Shown: piece after piece, positions 787 to 37,031 of the stretch
Position numbering within the stretch: the stretch's first letter is position 1
How the letters are laid out: each line of letters begins with the position of its first letter
Assembly: GCF_020042285.1 (NCBI RefSeq)
Contig: NZ_CP083388.1
Location: 3,064,001 to 3,128,000 of the forward strand
Direction: 5' to 3'
DNA from: Ferruginibacter albus
Lineage (GTDB): Bacteria; Bacteroidota; Bacteroidia; Chitinophagales; Chitinophagaceae
DNA: 64,000 bases
The notes under the pieces: generated by a model
The model's database searches: none
Seen by the model: only the letters and a program-made list of their open reading frames with translations
Told to the model about the DNA's origin: nothing
Translations under genes and position numbers: made by a program

Positions 787-816
787 TTGGGTTTAAATAT
801 AATTTCTATACATTCG
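787..816 (+). promoter_or_regulatory. Candidate promoter for the btuB riboswitch transcript
   Basis: TTG at 787-789 and TACATTCG at 809-816 are separated by 19 bases, matching seven of eight positions of the Bacteroidota -7 box TAnnTTTG with a -33 TTG. The predicted start near 822 falls just before the first riboswitch helix. Pattern match by eye only. Confidence 0.4.
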
Positions 817-825
817 CACCGCATT

Positions 826-1048
826 TGGTTCTTAATCGCTGCAAAGCGATGGATTAAAAGGGAATTCCGGTGTAAGTCCGGAGCTATCCCCGTAGCTGTA
901 ATGCCGCAGTTTTATAACAACTTTTGAATAACTGCATTCCACTGTCTGTATTTAAGCAAGATGGGAAGGAAATTCAAAAGGCGGCAAAGCCAGAAGACCT
1001 GCCAGGCGCAAATTTTATTCAACGAGCTTTCGGGTGAAAAGCCGGGAT
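826..1048 (+). promoter_or_regulatory. Cobalamin (AdoCbl-type) riboswitch upstream of btuB
   Basis: Conserved elements are visible in order: AAAAGGGAA at 856-864, the TCCGG...CCGGAGC arm at 866-884, the L5 loop with CCCCG at 888-892 followed by TAGCTGTAATG, and the B12 box GCCAGAAGACCTGCC around 989-1003. A downstream loop TTTCGGGTGAA carries CGGG at 1031-1034, which can pair with L5 as the L5-L13 kissing loop of this class. A possible expression platform follows: AAGTCT (1054-1059) can pair with AGGCTT (1067-1072) before a pyrimidine-rich tract. The gene downstream encodes a BtuB-like receptor, the usual target of this riboswitch, so cobalamin is expected to repress uptake. Confidence 0.93.
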
Positions 1049-3950: not shown

Positions 3951-3978
3951 TTGTAACGTTGTAGTGCATTTATGGTTG
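3951..3978 (+). promoter_or_regulatory. Candidate promoter for the nrdBA riboswitch transcript
   Basis: TTG at 3951-3953 and TATGGTTG at 3971-3978 are spaced by 17 bases (seven of eight positions of TAnnTTTG). The predicted start near 3984 lies immediately before the riboswitch. Weak match, supported mainly by position. Confidence 0.3.
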
Positions 3979-3985
3979 CGGCAAG

Positions 3986-4235
3986 TTTTTCAAACAAAGC
4001 CGTATTAAAAGGGAATCCGGTCGTACTCCGGAACTGTCCCCGCAGCTGTGAGTTCTTGGTAAAAGAAGGATCGTTGCAAAACAAATCTTTTACAACTTTT
4101 AATCAACAAGCCACTGTTTATGGTAGTGAGAGCTTGGTAAACGGGAAGGCAATTAAAAGATAGAATAAGTCAGAAGACCTGCCATAAATTCAAAAATCAA
4201 GAGTCATAATGCTTTCGGGTGAAGGGCAATGTACT
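3986..4235 (+). promoter_or_regulatory. Cobalamin riboswitch upstream of class I ribonucleotide reductase
   Basis: The same elements as in the btuB element are present: AAAAGGGAATCCGG at 4007-4020, CTCCGGAAC at 4026-4034, L5 CCCCGC at 4038-4043 followed by AGCTGTGAG, and the B12 box GTCAGAAGACCTGCC at 4169-4183. The loop TTTCGGGTGAA carries CGGG at 4216-4219 for the L5-L13 kissing interaction. Downstream, ATGTA (4229-4233) pairs with TACAT (4238-4242), then GTC/GAC and a T-rich tract at 4254-4265 that could act as terminator. The first gene downstream is nrdB at 4324. Cobalamin would be expected to switch off the B12-independent reductase. Confidence 0.92.
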
Positions 4236-31131: not shown

Positions 31132-31353
31132 GTGACAGCAGAGCATACCTTATTAATTACATTGGGATTAAGAATAAAAAATATTCGGAAAGACAAAAAC
31201 ATGACCCAATCGGCTCTTTCGCATAAATGCGGTTTCCCAAAAGGCACTTTATCAAGGATAGAAAAAGGAAAAACCAACCTAACCATACGTTCATTATGGA
31301 AAATATGTTCGGCATTGGAAACCGAAATGGGAGAACTGTTTACTAATCTTTAA
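31132..31353 (+). CDS. Small XRE/Cro-C1-type HTH regulator
   Basis: The 73-residue protein is almost entirely one HTH_3 domain: LRIKNIRKDKNMTQSALSHKCG, then PKGTLSRIEKGKTNLTIRSLWKICSALE. The start is a GTG at 31132; the first internal ATG (31201) would cut into helix 1, so GTG is preferred. Proteins of this size in Bacteroidota often act as autoregulators or accompany small modules. It is on the same strand as the signalling genes before and after, but a hairpin (31381-31408) separates it from the next gene. Confidence 0.8.
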   Translation: MTAEHTLLITLGLRIKNIRKDKNMTQSALSHKCGFPKGTLSRIEKGKTNLTIRSLWKICSALETEMGELFTNL

Positions 31354-31482: not shown

Positions 31483-31543
31483 TTACCGTTGTAAACATAG
31501 ATCGATCACCACTTATTACCGGTGGGGAATTTCTCAATGTAGC

Positions 31544-31587
31544 GGGGAAATTTCCCCTATTGCTTTTTATGTTTTATTTTCATCTTG
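31544..31587 (+). promoter_or_regulatory. Palindromic operator candidate with promoter ahead of the 31622 gene
   Basis: GGGGAAATTTCCCC (31544-31557) is a perfect palindrome. Three bases after its GGGAAATTTCCC core comes TTG (31560-31562), then 17 bases, then TCATCTTG (31580-31587), a partial TAnnTTTG match. The layout repeats at 34443-34488. A degenerate copy, GGGGAATTTCTC, lies just upstream at about 31524-31535. Confidence 0.45.
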
Positions 31588-31621
31588 TAAAATCTTTAAC
31601 CTCAAAAACAAATACTAAACC

Positions 31622-32101
31622 ATGAGTGTTCCAAATCAAATCTCCTTTGCGGGAAAAACAGAGTACACAGTAGGCGATGAGCCAACAGGAATGATTACCT
31701 ACATGCTGGACCCAGACACTACCGGCGGCATGCCCATTACTTCTGATGTTTATCAGAAAGGTGTAGTAGCTTATCTTGAACAGGCAAGCGATACATCTGA
31801 AGACCTAGCTGCCGTTTACTTCAGCAAACAATTATTGTTATTTTTACTGTCGTTTGATGAATGTACAGGGATAACCTTCTCCAGGTATTTAAAACCGGAC
31901 GGGACACAATCTCTGGCAGCATTGGCAGTAGATGAAAACAAAATGAGTCTGGGTTGGAATCCATTAACCAAAGGATTTACAGATGGAAAGTTTGTTGCTG
32001 CCGAATGGGCGCATACAAGCACGCAGGCAACAGCTAAAAAGTTTTTAAAAGCCAGCTTACCTGCAGGATTCGATTTTGAGCGGTTCTTTAAATCGCTTTA
32101 G
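31622..32101 (+). CDS. Conserved-looking protein of unknown function, first gene of a kinase module
   Basis: The 159-residue protein begins MSVPNQISFAGKTEYTVGDE. It has no signal peptide or membrane segment and no motif I recognise. It looks like a compact alpha/beta protein with a hydrophobic helix (YFSKQLLLFLLSFDE) followed by strand-rich sequence and a C-terminal basic/aromatic helix (FDFERFFKSL). Codon use resembles its neighbours. It lies 65 bases ahead of the 7TM gene, which overlaps the kinase gene, so it probably belongs to the module and might be a cytoplasmic cofactor or target. The ATG at 31622 follows a clean AT-rich leader. The function is not known. Confidence 0.7.
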   Translation: MSVPNQISFAGKTEYTVGDEPTGMITYMLDPDTTGGMPITSDVYQKGVVAYLEQASDTSEDLAAVYFSKQLLLFLLSFDECTGITFSRYLKPDGTQSLAALAVDENKMSLGWNPLTKGFTDGKFVAAEWAHTSTQATAKKFLKASLPAGFDFERFFKSL

Positions 32102-32166
32102 TTTCGCCCCATTTGATCCGAAAGAACTTATGAGATTTCTTTTTTTTAACACAAGCAGTACCTGTT

Positions 32167-32826
32167 ATGAAACTGAGTTTGATCATTTATTATATCATAT
32201 TGTTTACGGCCTGCATCCTTTCTGTGATCAGGATAAAACATGATAGGCGGCTGCTTGTGTTTGCTATTTTATTAATTACCTCCCTGTCCGAAGAATTATT
32301 ATTTGAAGTGCTGGAGTATAAAAAAGTAGGAAAGAATTTTTATTTCATTTACCATTTTTTTGCTCCCGTTTATTATGGACTATTTGCCTATTATTTTTCT
32401 TTAGCTGTACCAAAAGGAAAAATTCGCAACAGCATCCGCATTTCAATTCCCCTTTTTACCATTGCTACTTTGGCGATCTCCTTTTCACAGGAAAGTTTTA
32501 AAGTATTTCCCGGTGTACAGTTAAACATCATCGGCGTTCTATTAATTATTAATTCTCTTATTGCTTTATTTCAATTGGATGTACGCGATCGTACACCTCT
32601 TTTGCGTCGTCCTATTTTTTGGATCAGCATCTCTACCTTATTTTTCTATTCCGTTCTTTTTTCTTTAAATGGTTTTTTTAATTATTTGATGAAACACAAT
32701 TTTAATTTGGCAGTGAACCTTTATCAGCTACTCAATAATAATCTTAACTATTTGTACTATCTTCTCATTATTATTGGCATGCTATGTTCAAAACCGATAC
32801 AGAAATACTCATTACAATCCTCCTAG
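32167..32826 (+). CDS. Seven-helix integral membrane protein, putative sensor component
   Basis: The 219-residue protein has about seven hydrophobic segments (about 3-20, 28-45, 56-76, 88-105, 115-135, 150-170, 195-212). Short charged loops such as RIKHDRR, DVRDRTPLLRRP and KKVGKN separate them. There is no signal peptide and no catalytic motif. Its last 43 bases overlap the start of the kinase gene, which has a single membrane segment and no input domain of its own. The arrangement suggests that this protein supplies the sensing part, as small 7TM proteins do beside short kinases in other Bacteroidota. That role is inferred from context only. Confidence 0.7.
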   Translation: MKLSLIIYYIILFTACILSVIRIKHDRRLLVFAILLITSLSEELLFEVLEYKKVGKNFYFIYHFFAPVYYGLFAYYFSLAVPKGKIRNSIRISIPLFTIATLAISFSQESFKVFPGVQLNIIGVLLIINSLIALFQLDVRDRTPLLRRPIFWISISTLFFYSVLFSLNGFFNYLMKHNFNLAVNLYQLLNNNLNYLYYLLIIIGMLCSKPIQKYSLQSS

Positions 32827-33560
32827 GATGTCTGTTGTTTGCAATATTGGCAATTGTTATTATTTGGGTGATCATTAACTATAAGAGAAGACAACAAAAA
32901 CACTTTTTAGAAATTGAGGCTATGAATGAAGAGTTTGAAAAACAATTGATGCGATCACAGATCGAAGTGCAGGAAGCAACATTTTCTGAATTAAGTAAAG
33001 AGCTGCATGATAATATCGGGCAGCTATTAAGCAGCACTAAAATGCTGATAGGGATTACCGAAAGAAAATTGAGCGATCCACCCGAAAGCCTGTTGATAGC
33101 TGATGAAACATTGGCCAAAGCCATTCATGAATTACGTTCTCTTTCAAAATCACTGGATAAAGAATGGTTACAGCAATTTAATTTTATCGACAATTTAACC
33201 AATGAGATCAATCGCATTAATATAGCCGGCGAACTTAAAATAAAATTCATTCACCCTTCCTCGCTTCCGTTAAAAGCAGATGAACAGATCATCTTATTCC
33301 GAATTGTACAGGAAGCTGTTCAAAACGCCATAAAGCACGGACGCTCTAATTCTATCGGCATTACAATTACTGAAAGATCTTTTTTATTATTCATTACCAT
33401 TGAAGATGATGGAAAGGGGTTTGACACCAGCCTTCAATCAAAAGGAATGGGTTTACGCAATATTGAACACCGCACTCATTTATTAAAAGGCACCGTAACG
33501 TGGAAATCTGAAATGGATGCAGGAACAACCATAAACATACAATTACCAATTCAGTCATGA
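32784..33560 (+). CDS. Short membrane-anchored NarL-type histidine kinase
   Basis: The 258-residue kinase has one membrane helix (about 7-32), a charged coiled coil (33-65) and HisKA_3 with H75 (LSKELHDNIGQLLSSTKM). The ATPase domain has FRIVQEAVQNAIKHGRSN and EDDGKGFDTSLQSKGMGLRNI. It has no recognisable periplasmic or PAS input domain. The start at 32784 lies inside the 7TM gene, and its stop overlaps the regulator start as ATGA. The 7TM protein, kinase and regulator therefore form a tightly coupled unit. Confidence 0.9.
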   Translation: MFKTDTEILITILLGCLLFAILAIVIIWVIINYKRRQQKHFLEIEAMNEEFEKQLMRSQIEVQEATFSELSKELHDNIGQLLSSTKMLIGITERKLSDPPESLLIADETLAKAIHELRSLSKSLDKEWLQQFNFIDNLTNEINRINIAGELKIKFIHPSSLPLKADEQIILFRIVQEAVQNAIKHGRSNSIGITITERSFLLFITIEDDGKGFDTSLQSKGMGLRNIEHRTHLLKGTVTWKSEMDAGTTINIQLPIQS

Positions 33561-34201
33561 GAAAAATAGCTATCGGACTTGTAGATGATCATCAATTATT
33601 TTTAAAATCCTTAAGTGTTTTATTAGATGGAATAAGCACATATGAAGTGGTAGTAGAAGCGTTGAATGGAAAAGACCTGCAGGAAAAGCTGCTTGCCAAA
33701 AACAGTACACCGGATATTATATTAATTGATGTGAATATGCCGATAATGAATGGCATTGAAACAGCACAGTGGCTGCACGTCAATTATCCCGCAATGAAAC
33801 TGGTAGCATTGTCAATGAATGATAATGACAGAACCATTATAGATATGATCAAAGCAGGATGTTGCGCCTATCTTTTAAAAGATACACATCCCAACGAATT
33901 GGAAAAAGCCTTAAATGAGATCAACACACAAGGCTATTATAATGGTGATATAGCCAACATTAATTATCGCCGTTTATTAACGTCTGCCAACGAAACTGAA
34001 AACATTTCTTTTACTGAAAAGGAAAAAGAATTTTTGCAACTTGCCTGCAGCGATATGACGTATAAGCAAATTGCAGGCATCATGAACATTACGGAAAGAG
34101 CTGTTGACAAAACACGGGAAACATTATTTGAAAAGCTGCAAGTGCAAAGCCGCGTTGGGCTTGCATTAGAAGCTATCAGAAGAAAGCTTGCCACACTTTA
34201 A
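33557..34201 (+). CDS. Response regulator, REC plus LuxR-type HTH
   Basis: The 214-residue protein has a receiver domain with the acidic pair in IGLVDDHQLFLKS, phosphorylation site D58 (IILIDVNMPIMNG) and Lys in AYLLKDTHP. The C-terminal HTH (about 145-210) has FTEKEKEFLQLACSDMTYKQIAGIM and ITERAVDKTRETLFEKLQV. It is the partner of the kinase at 32784. Two GGGAAATTTCCC palindromes, one before the module and one just after it, are possible binding sites, but no direct evidence links them. Confidence 0.93.
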   Translation: MRKIAIGLVDDHQLFLKSLSVLLDGISTYEVVVEALNGKDLQEKLLAKNSTPDIILIDVNMPIMNGIETAQWLHVNYPAMKLVALSMNDNDRTIIDMIKAGCCAYLLKDTHPNELEKALNEINTQGYYNGDIANINYRRLLTSANETENISFTEKEKEFLQLACSDMTYKQIAGIMNITERAVDKTRETLFEKLQVQSRVGLALEAIRRKLATL

Positions 34202-34407
34202 GTACTCTCTCACTTTCTTTATCTATAAAATAGTTTGTGTAGAAAATTTCTTACACAAAAATATCCCATCTTCTTACATATCAATAACTCAACCTAAAGC
34301 ATCTTTGCATTCCAAAACAATGATAGCTACATATAATGCATTATAACCTAGAAAAACCTTTTTGATTATTAGATTTCATTGTGCTTACCTCTAAACAAGA
34401 AAAAAAT

Positions 34408-34440
34408 AAAAAAGCCGAAGTTTTAGCTTCGGCTTTTTTA
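34408..34440. terminator. Strong bidirectional terminator
   Basis: AAAAAAGCCGAAG (34408-34420) pairs with CTTCGGCTTTTTT (34427-34439), loop TTTTAG, with A- and T-tracts on either side. It lies about 200 bases after the regulator stop. Confidence 0.85.
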
Positions 34441-34442
34441 TG

Positions 34443-34488
34443 ATGGGAAATTTCCCATTATTGTCAATTTGCTTTTATACTATTTTGG
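34443..34488 (+). promoter_or_regulatory. Second palindromic operator candidate with promoter
   Basis: ATGGGAAATTTCCCAT (34443-34458) is a perfect 16-base palindrome. Four bases after its GGGAAATTTCCC core comes TTG (34461-34463), then 17 bases, then TATTTTGG (34481-34488), close to TAnnTTTG. The same layout precedes the gene at 31622. Confidence 0.45.
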
Positions 34489-34492
34489 CTTT

Positions 34493-34558
34493 GGTAATCA
34501 AGCAGTCGATACTTTTACAAGTATCGAGAAGCGTAAGACGTTGTTCTTACGCTTTTTT
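34493..34558 (+). ncRNA. Possible small RNA of two hairpins with terminator
   Basis: TCGATACTT/AAGTATCGA (34506-34527, loop TTAC) and AAGCGTAAGA/TCTTACGCTT (34529-34554, loop CGTTGT) are both perfect stems, and TTTTA follows on the plus strand only. The neighbouring gene is on the minus strand and has no use for a plus-strand terminator, so a short plus-strand transcript starting near 34493 is plausible. The candidate promoter is at 34461-34488. Confidence 0.3.
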
Positions 34559-34562
34559 ACTT

Positions 34563-35960
34563 TTATAATGATTCAACAAATTTGATTATCCTGTTGCGAT
34601 CGTCTTTATTCAATTGCATAAACTGATCTCTGGATTGTTTCGCTTCTCCATCATGCCACAGTATAGCTTCTTCAATAGTTGTAGCACGCCCATCATGTAA
34701 AAAATAAGGAATACCATTTGCTTTATCCAGCAGGCCAACTCCCCAAAGTGGTGCTGTACGCCAGTCTTGTCCACCTGCTAAAAAATCAGGGCGATTATCA
34801 GCTAGCCCGGGTCCCATATCATGCACTAATAGATCTGTATACGGATGTATGCGTTGGTTAGATAATTGTGCCAATGATTGATTAATTTCTGTTTGCATAG
34901 TGGGACGATGACAACCGGAACAATTAACCTGGTTAAATAAATATTCTCCGCGTTTTATATCATCATCTGTAACATTTCGTCTTGCCGGCACAGCCAATGT
35001 CTTTACATAAAAAACTGTATAATTTAAGAGACTGTCCACTATTTCCATGGGAAGTTCTTTGGGCACGGCATTCATTTGCGTTTGCCCAAATGCGCTTTCA
35101 ACCGGTTGCACATAACTGGTAATTCCCATATCCTGCTGGTAAGCGGTAGCTACCTGCGTAAGCAATGTGGCTGTATTTGCTTTCCAGCCAAATCTTCCTA
35201 TTAAAGTTTGATGAGTATATGCATCATATACATAGTTTGCTTTGCCACGTATACCATCATTGTTTGCATCATTTGGATCTTGAAAAGAAAGAATAGTTTG
35301 TTCAGGTACCAACTCCAACAAGCCCATACCTACTACCGGAGGTGCTAAACGAGGTGATAACATATAACCCGCAGGCATTGGAATGTAAGACGATGCAATA
35401 CTATATGTTGGTTTCTTTAATGTCGTTGTATTCCCATCCGGATAAGTCACTGTTACATTATCATACACAATAGGATTGAACGTTACTTCGGGGGCAGCGC
35501 CAAAAATATGCTGATCCTGCAATTGCCCTCCAAAACCATCAGGTGTTAGCGGACCGCCATGAGCATCACTACCGGGAATGCTTATACGAAATAACATTCC
35601 TGAATTGCTGAATCCCATAGTAGGAATTCCTTCACCATCATGGCGATGACAGCTGATACAAGATACATTGTTAAATACAGGCCCTAATCCCGTAAAGTTT
35701 GGACGGGAGTCCACTACAAATGTTTGCGAGAAAGTAGCATCACCTAAATCATGTACACGGGCATCGCGTTCGCTTAAGCCATCAATAGCACTGCTTAAGG
35801 CATGGGAAGTTTCATCAAAAGTAGTGGCCGATCCTCCACTTAAACGACTGTCGTAGCCATCATCGGGAAAAACGCCGGCTTTGTTACACATAGAGAATGT
35901 GCCAACTAATAATGCTAATCCAAATATGATATAAAATTTTCTCAATTTATTACTCTCCAA
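34563..35960 (-). CDS. Di-haem oxidoreductase-like lipoprotein (DUF1111/COG3488 type)
   Basis: The 465-residue protein has a lipoprotein signal (GTFSMC, Cys25). Two c-type haem motifs are seen: CISCH at 101-105, followed by RHDGEGIP, and CSGCH at 347-351. Other family blocks are GLGPVFNNVSC, PRLAPPVVGMGLLELVP, DGIRGKANYV and FLHDGRATTIEEAILWHDGEA, the last similar to MauG/cytochrome peroxidase C-termini. It follows the imelysin gene with no gap. DUF1111 proteins (di-haem thiol oxidoreductase-like) repeatedly accompany imelysins in proposed iron uptake loci. Electron transfer at the outer membrane, possibly to reduce or oxidise a metal, is inferred. Confidence 0.87.
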   Translation of the reverse strand: MESNKLRKFYIIFGLALLVGTFSMCNKAGVFPDDGYDSRLSGGSATTFDETSHALSSAIDGLSERDARVHDLGDATFSQTFVVDSRPNFTGLGPVFNNVSCISCHRHDGEGIPTMGFSNSGMLFRISIPGSDAHGGPLTPDGFGGQLQDQHIFGAAPEVTFNPIVYDNVTVTYPDGNTTTLKKPTYSIASSYIPMPAGYMLSPRLAPPVVGMGLLELVPEQTILSFQDPNDANNDGIRGKANYVYDAYTHQTLIGRFGWKANTATLLTQVATAYQQDMGITSYVQPVESAFGQTQMNAVPKELPMEIVDSLLNYTVFYVKTLAVPARRNVTDDDIKRGEYLFNQVNCSGCHRPTMQTEINQSLAQLSNQRIHPYTDLLVHDMGPGLADNRPDFLAGGQDWRTAPLWGVGLLDKANGIPYFLHDGRATTIEEAILWHDGEAKQSRDQFMQLNKDDRNRIIKFVESL

Positions 35961-37031
35961 TTAGTCTTTCACGTATGTTGTAACAAAAGTGGTCAGGTCA
36001 TTATCCAGCAACACTTTCAATTCACCCAACTTATCCATTGTTTGCTGCACTAATGAGCGTTGCGTATAGATAGCCTGCTCGTATGGCAAGGTGATATTAT
36101 TAAACGAATTGATCGCCTCTGTGATCTTTGCCTGAATTTGATTGTCTAAATTTTTATTCTTCAATGCTACCAGGTCTTTCAAACCTCTACCACCATTCAA
36201 TCCCATGTATACATTTTGAATACCGATGATATTATTTTTAAAATCAGTAGTAGTATTATTGGAATAAGGAGATTCCGTAATGGTTGAATCATGTGCATCA
36301 AAAGGTTCTTTCATTTTTCCTTCTCCAACCTCCCCGCAAATATCGCTCATAGCTCCGATGATTGCTAAAAACACATCTTGCTTGGTTTTAAATTTATTAT
36401 TGCTGCTGCTTGGATTTAATATTTTCTGAGCATAGTTATCTCCACCAGCAGTCCAGCTTTGTAATAAAGGCAATGCATTATTTGTATAAAGATCGTCTGA
36501 TAAGCTTACTGCATATTTTAATAAACGGGGAGTATCTGTAAAATTAGTAACGGTACGTCCGCTTCCTCTACCGAATAAAACGAATTCAATTGGATGATAA
36601 CCACGCAATGATTGCGGCAGGTTGGCAATATCTGATACTTCCAACGGGTTGCTACTTGTTATGATCGAGTCTAATTGAGTATAGTCTGTAGGCCAGGTAT
36701 CAGTGTTAGGATCATAATCATTATCCTCGATGGGCCCAAACAAGAAACCTTCACATTGTTCCCAATTTACACGAACGTTTTTCCAGGCTAATTTTGCTGC
36801 CTGTAAATTAATAGTAGTTGGATTATTATGTAATGTATCTACTGCAATGTTCAATACATTTGCTGCAGCAGCTAAGCCTTGGTATTGTGGGATGGCTGTT
36901 CTGTTTACAAAGTCATTGATAACAGAATCCTCCTGTTGTGTAAAATCAACAGCAGGTGTAGGTGTATCATCTTTGCTACACGCTGTTAACAATAATACCG
37001 TTGCGGCTATTAAGTAGGTTATTTTTTTCAT
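35961..37031 (-). CDS. Imelysin-family (M75/EfeO-like) lipoprotein
   Basis: The 356-residue protein has a lipobox LTAC (Cys18) followed by SKDD. The imelysin core is all-helical and includes WEQCEGFLFGPIEDNDYDP and the GxHxxE motif in RGYHPIEFVLFG, the proposed metal site. It also has EGKMKEPFDAHDSTITESPYS. Imelysins are iron-regulated surface or periplasmic proteins whose protease name is historical; metal binding is better supported than proteolysis. The gene lies between the porin (28-base gap) and the di-haem protein (adjacent stop/start), giving a three-gene operon. Confidence 0.88.
   Translation of the reverse strand: MKKITYLIAATVLLLTACSKDDTPTPAVDFTQQEDSVINDFVNRTAIPQYQGLAAAANVLNIAVDTLHNNPTTINLQAAKLAWKNVRVNWEQCEGFLFGPIEDNDYDPNTDTWPTDYTQLDSIITSSNPLEVSDIANLPQSLRGYHPIEFVLFGRGSGRTVTNFTDTPRLLKYAVSLSDDLYTNNALPLLQSWTAGGDNYAQKILNPSSSNNKFKTKQDVFLAIIGAMSDICGEVGEGKMKEPFDAHDSTITESPYSNNTTTDFKNNIIGIQNVYMGLNGGRGLKDLVALKNKNLDNQIQAKITEAINSFNNITLPYEQAIYTQRSLVQQTMDKLGELKVLLDNDLTTFVTTYVKD

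Follow-up and report, generated by a model that had tools for sequence, protein, structure and literature searches.

The 64,000-nt stretch of the Ferruginibacter albus genome analysed here (the window; contig NZ_CP083388.1, positions 3,064,001 to 3,128,000) contains a four-gene sensor module that ends with the gene for a LuxR/NarL-type response regulator (RR; 33557..34201, plus strand, numbered like all coordinates below from the start of the window unless a genome is named). Two matching palindromes flank this module: site 1 lies in front of its first gene and site 2 beyond its end. Both are very probably operators of the RR, which is predicted to use them for class II activation of its own module and of a short transcript at site 2. 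A sequence-only reading of this DNA had proposed that the two units share a regulator, either the RR or the XRE protein encoded at 31132. The first part of that proposal is supported by the way in which the palindrome tracks the RR clade among related genomes. As for the RR itself as binder, the clade association of the palindrome, the retention of the palindrome beside RRs that lack a kinase and its class II distance from a conserved −7 box all point to it.

Site 1, GGGGAAATTTCCCC (31544..31557), and site 2, ATGGGAAATTTCCCAT (34443..34458), both on the plus strand, share the exact core GGGAAATTTCCC at 31545 and 34445, 2.9 kb apart. After each core, three or four bases lead to a TTG (31560 and 34461) and a further 17 bases to a box, TCATCTTG at 31580 and TATTTTGG at 34481, the second of which fits five of the six fixed letters of TAnnTTTG. 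The sequences and coordinates of both units had been given in the sequence-only reading and agree with the window. Upstream of site 1, at a distance of 21 bp, there is a degenerate distal palindrome, GGGGAATTTCTC (31524..31535, plus strand). The TAnnTTTG box of Flavobacterium psychrophilum occupies −12 to −5 (PMC9723704), and this position places the predicted starts at about 31592 for site 1 (−7 box 31580..31587, plus strand) and at about 34492–34493 for site 2 (−7 box CTATTTTGG, 34480..34488, plus strand). In both, the offset from the core to the TTG that ends the box is 28, a value shared by relatives.

The exact core occurs exactly twice in the 3,760,165-base genome, both times at the module, with no copy of the reversed control and about 0.15 copies expected by chance in the whole genome at 37% GC. 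Its recurrence, which the sequence-only reading had made a test of its proposal, exceeds chance. Copies with one mismatch are near background in this genome (eight vs five for the control) and seven of the eight lie inside open reading frames (ORFs). A chance origin was rejected on the whole-genome core counts together with shuffles of the clade association and of the box spacing.

The clade RR was found in 54 of 394 genomes of the family, taken here to be Chitinophagaceae, its own included, in a search that scored at most seven candidates per genome; among ten sampled genomes of its own genus it is found in one. We define the clade as this RR and 53 full-length RRs of at least 49% identity (E at most 2e-62), the next full-length RRs having at most 48%; two partial RRs (G362 and G128, 65–69% identity over part of their length) were excluded. 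A quick tree took in 52 clade rows, two others having too little upstream sequence, and groups all of the 52 on the same side of a branch (SH-aLRT support 99%). The palindrome is carried by 43 of these rows, and its presence needs 16 changes on the tree vs a shuffle mean of 36. At one clade locus (L165, genome G249) the RR gene has an in-frame TGA while operator and −7 box are kept, and it is either a pseudogene or a sequence error.

A qualifying site, defined as GGG-N6-CCC with at least five A/T inside and 60–2800 bp upstream of the RR, was found at 43 of 54 clade loci vs 8 of 56 paralogous module loci (Fisher 3.3e-12). Shuffles resampled from dinucleotide frequencies gave a mean of 3.2 of 54 and a maximum of 8 (50 shuffles), near copies being kept in all these counts. 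The palindrome itself shows the conservation in relatives that the sequence-only reading called for. A palindrome count not seeded with the word from that reading found GGGAA-N2-TTCCC in 18 of 51 and CGGGA-N4-TCCCG in 16 of 51 clade loci, and at paralogous loci it instead favoured ACCGT-N6-ACGGT (13 of 56). Genome-wide, ACGGGWWWWWWCCCGT occurs in 24 of 54 clade genomes vs 30 of 340 others (p 1e-9). Exact cores alone are a weak signal: 60 of 195 family genomes have one and 38 have the reversed control. One genome (G324) carries ACGGGWWWWWWCCCGT 19 times, the listed places reading ACGGGTTTTAACCCGT or its complement, as they do in several genomes without a clade RR; these ACGGGTTTTAACCCGT copies are a different repeat or operator family.

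The kinase homologue is absent from the fetched stretch at six clade loci, and five of these (L202, L208, L209, L210 and L212, with L208 and L209 near copies) keep the palindrome, 114–155 bp upstream of the RR. The palindrome is thus kept beside RRs without a kinase, which singles out the RR over the other module genes. A natural experiment in genus g25 failed. In the spacer between two genes that we take to be korB and tsaC, a strong palindrome is present in G190 and G024 and absent from G121, where no clade RR was found; it is also absent from G238 and G278, which do have a clade RR.

Base counts over 38 clade sites give TACGGGAAWWTTCCCGTA. The predicted clade operator consists of inverted hexamers with a 4-base spacer, ACGGGA-N4-TCCCGT, with the half-site (T)ACGGGA, from which the outer two bases of the two sites in the window deviate. 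In the recognition helix, clade RRs differ from paralogues, E180 and E188 being examples (54 clade rows vs 43 others). Within the clade, with near copies retained, G follows the core in 31 of the 34 loci with G185 in the RR and in one of seven with another residue; the RR of the window has K185, and two of the seven are near copies. Of the 63 helix-turn-helix columns scanned, the two that rank highest for the base beside the core, 185 and then 182, belong to the recognition helix.

Most of the palindromes also stand at one of two phased distances from the −7 box. The TTG that ends the −7 box stands 28–30 bases after the core in 20 of 38 loci and 50–53 bases after it in 13 more, making 33 of 38, while shuffles that keep single-base composition only gave a mean of 4.7 and a maximum of 13 (2000 shuffles). 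These counts exclude near copies (L175, L207 and L209) and far sites (L203 and L196), and five loci (L163, L167, L169, L200 and L213) have no phased box. A tally of 39 sequences places the TTG at offsets 28–30 in 21 and at 51–52 in 14. The −33 TTG shortly after the core at both window sites, with its 17-base spacing to the box, had been pointed out in the sequence-only reading; it is not conserved in relatives, 7 of the 39 sequences having a TTG at offsets 1–4. A second copy of the palindrome lies most often 22–23 bp away in relatives. The partner is distal, at 22–23 bp, when the box stands at 24, and proximal, at 23 bp, when the box stands at 47, and the two box distances differ by one operator spacing. 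Since the near or far box distance and the side of the partner switch together, the arrangements compared follow a common plan of two copies 22–23 bp apart (21 in the window), the proximal one at a fixed distance from the −7 box. With the F. psychrophilum box position, the centre of the proximal palindrome falls at about −41.5 when the offset is 28, as at both window sites, and at −42.5 when it is 29. Relative to the predicted start, a location near −42 is that of a class II activator. It is the position known for LuxR.

Site 2 faces a convergent gene, so that a small RNA would be its natural product. A candidate of this kind lies at 34493..34564 on the plus strand, with two hairpins, the second an intrinsic terminator; its minimum free energy is −23.6 kcal/mol and its z score −4.98, a value to be read with the terminator in mind, which alone raises the folding score. 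The −7 box and the intrinsic terminator, the latter within a terminator-like hairpin at 34526–34557, bound a short non-coding unit of about 70 nt. The small RNA foreseen at site 2 by the sequence-only reading is plausible on its promoter-like box and terminator, though its body has no convincing match in the relatives searched (see below). No Rfam family matches the region at gathering score, matches near 34400–34560 at a relaxed threshold staying below it. Between the module and site 2 stands another terminator-like hairpin (34406..34441); only its minus strand was called in the scan, and the plus strand has a T run as well.

Downstream of the RR, 4 of 56 loci, this one included, have a site-like word within 700 bp. 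The word at L199 is a tandem pair, and a TTG stands at offset 29 from it. In two genomes of another genus (L053 and L008), a structured, RNA-like unit that includes a terminator-like hairpin is preceded by a tandem site. This unit (L053:2590-2880, L008 and L273-L276) is partly shared by all five genomes of that genus, the strong palindrome being present in two only. In G238 and G278 the structured unit between korB and tsaC is interrupted by extra sequence, seemingly with a small lipoprotein-like gene.

The palindromes, their conservation with the RR clade, their spacing and the terminator are observed, and they suggest the following scheme. The sensor kinase would phosphorylate the RR, dimers of which would bind GGGAAATTTCCC; at site 1 another dimer would sit, more weakly, 21 bp upstream of the first. 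Centred at about −42 beside RNA polymerase, the proximal dimer would activate a promoter that has a −7 box and no conserved −33 element. Site 1 would thereby provide positive autoregulation of the four-gene module, while site 2 would drive a short terminated transcript beyond the end of the module, most likely a small RNA.

Several findings weigh against this scheme. No qualifying palindrome was found at 11 of the 54 clade loci, among which only L174, L193 and L211 have less than 2 kb upstream, and in two of the 43 positive loci (L196 and L203) the palindrome is distant from the gene called as its neighbour; 41 of 54 loci keep a site once these two are removed. The kinase-less clade locus L192 has no palindrome. 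The genome of the window holds zero copies of ACGGGWWWWWWCCCGT, because the flanks of its sites differ from those of the clade, and the site 1 box TCATCTTG fits just four of the six fixed letters of TAnnTTTG. The covariation of helix and base is only suggestive of the RR as binder, because it rests on four changes of column 185 on the tree; a tree-aware pair test was not significant and cannot reach significance. Finally, the body of the candidate RNA has no convincing match in 146 other genomes of the genus and order, where the better matches cover the upstream hairpin, nor at the remaining 53 clade loci, where the best match covers 20 bases at E 0.048.

That the RR is phosphorylated, binds the palindromes and activates rather than represses, and that the RNA exists, we infer. 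The core does sit just upstream of the −33 contact region of the polymerase, and a TTG follows it directly in the minority of loci counted above, which would suit negative autoregulation by the same RR through cover of the −33 region. The proximal palindrome nevertheless ends at about −36/−37 and leaves the −7 box free, and the second copy at 22–23 bp, the lack of a conserved −33 TTG and the near-fixed box distance suit activation better, which makes repression unlikely. Binding of both palindromes by another regulator, such as the XRE protein named in the sequence-only reading, is very improbable: small XRE proteins do bind palindromes and site 1 stands about 190 bp beyond the end of this gene, but a search at E 1e-3 of the 60 loci around clade and nearby RRs and of 51 further module loci found no XRE homologue, while the palindrome follows the RR clade, including RRs without a kinase. 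The presence of palindromes on both sides of the module and the occurrence of the clade RR in a single genome of the sampled congeners, which is compatible with transfer or with loss elsewhere, might also suggest that the palindromes are the termini of a mobile element, belong to a terminator or are chance repeats around the module. Counterparts of site 1 nevertheless occupy the same promoter position in many genera and site-like words downstream of the RR are confined to the four loci mentioned, so that we give this explanation hardly any credence. Activation of the module and of the site 2 transcript by the RR at 33557 is the explanation retained.

Further operator-like sequences were sought in the same genome. 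GGGWWWWWWCCC occurs at 12 places vs 4 for the reversed control: seven in ORFs, two (L058 and L252) in hairpins read by eye, sites 1 and 2 themselves, and L253. The last (GGGAAAAATCCC, G000:C1:1424581) is an imperfect palindrome followed at offset 23 by a perfect TATATTTG box, has a terminator-like hairpin, lies between a Gpr1/Fun34/YaaH-family gene and a trypsin/PDZ protease gene, and may be a further unit with a second candidate small RNA. The pattern GGG-N6-CCC-N28-TTG occurs at 13 places vs 4 for the control, six of them intergenic, including sites 1, 2 and L253. In G066 (L035-L042) there are 12 exact cores, some in tandem at 22 bp, followed by a CCGTT..AACGG palindrome about 21 bp on; some lie upstream of a D12 methyltransferase gene pair, a C-5 DNA methylase and an AAA_21/DUF4435 gene, which look like defence genes.

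All four module genes lie on the plus strand. The first encodes a 159-aa protein (31622..32101) and the second a 219-aa protein (32167..32826), both without a Pfam match, the second being judged a membrane protein from its sequence. A kinase with HisKA_3 and HATPase_c domains (Pfam; 32784..33560) adjoins the RR, which combines a receiver domain (Response_reg, 3.7e-22) with a LuxR-type helix-turn-helix output domain (GerE, 1.6e-10), an adjacency and gene order common to many relatives. The recurring order in the family is a variable first protein, a membrane protein of about 217 aa, a HisKA_3 kinase and a LuxR-type RR; relatives of the membrane protein are present in 55 of 195 genomes, its own included, and the genome of the window holds a second, paralogous module (L093). 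The first gene is extremely variable across 38 versions, many of which, compared by eye, share an RIYF-like core and a CPP-x-C-like end or a short (W/F)P tail. No relative of the 159-aa protein was confirmed in a search of a collection of genome contigs, and among 195 genomes it has one weak match (G177), directly upstream of a membrane-protein homologue; four versions, this one included, have no significant Pfam match. Convergent to site 2, the minus-strand region 34563-37031 holds a di-haem oxidoreductase (DHOR) gene beside a gene for a 356-aa protein that resembles what we take to be an imelysin-type protein. Two cobalamin riboswitches are found elsewhere in the window (809-1020 and 3956-4200, plus strand).

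Literature searches found no paper on this operator, the papers that contain the 12-mer being judged unrelated from their titles and the opening of their abstracts. The palindromes most likely represent a new operator, read by the RR at 33557, of an undescribed module of a known two-component kind. We suggest, tentatively and with somewhat more doubt than confidence, that the family holds a large undescribed set of four-gene sensor modules in which each RR clade has its own 16-bp palindrome (ACGGGA-N4-TCCCGT in this clade, ACCGT-N6-ACGGT in the paralogues), and that the module studied here may form a self-contained circuit, with a regulon limited almost entirely to its own operon plus one or two small RNAs (at 34493 and possibly near G000:C1:1424628). 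Such an operator would offer a readable code for a two-component family that is widespread and in which neither of the first two proteins has a Pfam family. Because dozens of genomes allow palindrome, recognition helix and promoter distance to be compared, the specificity of the RRs and their regulon, possibly including small RNAs, are directly testable.

Among known systems, NarL of Escherichia coli has the same Response_reg and GerE domains as the RR, and its kinase partners NarX and NarQ are of the HisKA_3 class, like the kinase of the module, while the NarL heptamers differ from GGGAAA. The quorum-sensing regulator LuxR is a class II activator at the lux box, a palindrome centred near −42.5 beside the polymerase. 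The proximal palindrome here is predicted to lie at a similar distance, although LuxR is not a response regulator and the promoter here has a TAnnTTTG-like −7 box. In PMC4797271, NarL is described as a dimer when bound to an inverted repeat and probably a monomer when bound to a single element, and the operator of ComA from Bacillus subtilis as an inverted repeat of TTGCGG hexamers with a 4-base spacer and a more degenerate element alongside. The ComA half-site differs from (T)ACGGGA, its second element is, in the same text, a direct repeat with 5-base spacing where the present operators have a palindrome-like copy at 22–23 bp, and the partner genes and the TAnnTTTG-type promoter also differ. 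ComA nevertheless has the same type of helix-turn-helix, and its inverted hexamers with a 4-base spacer have the architecture of ACGGGA-N4-TCCCGT.

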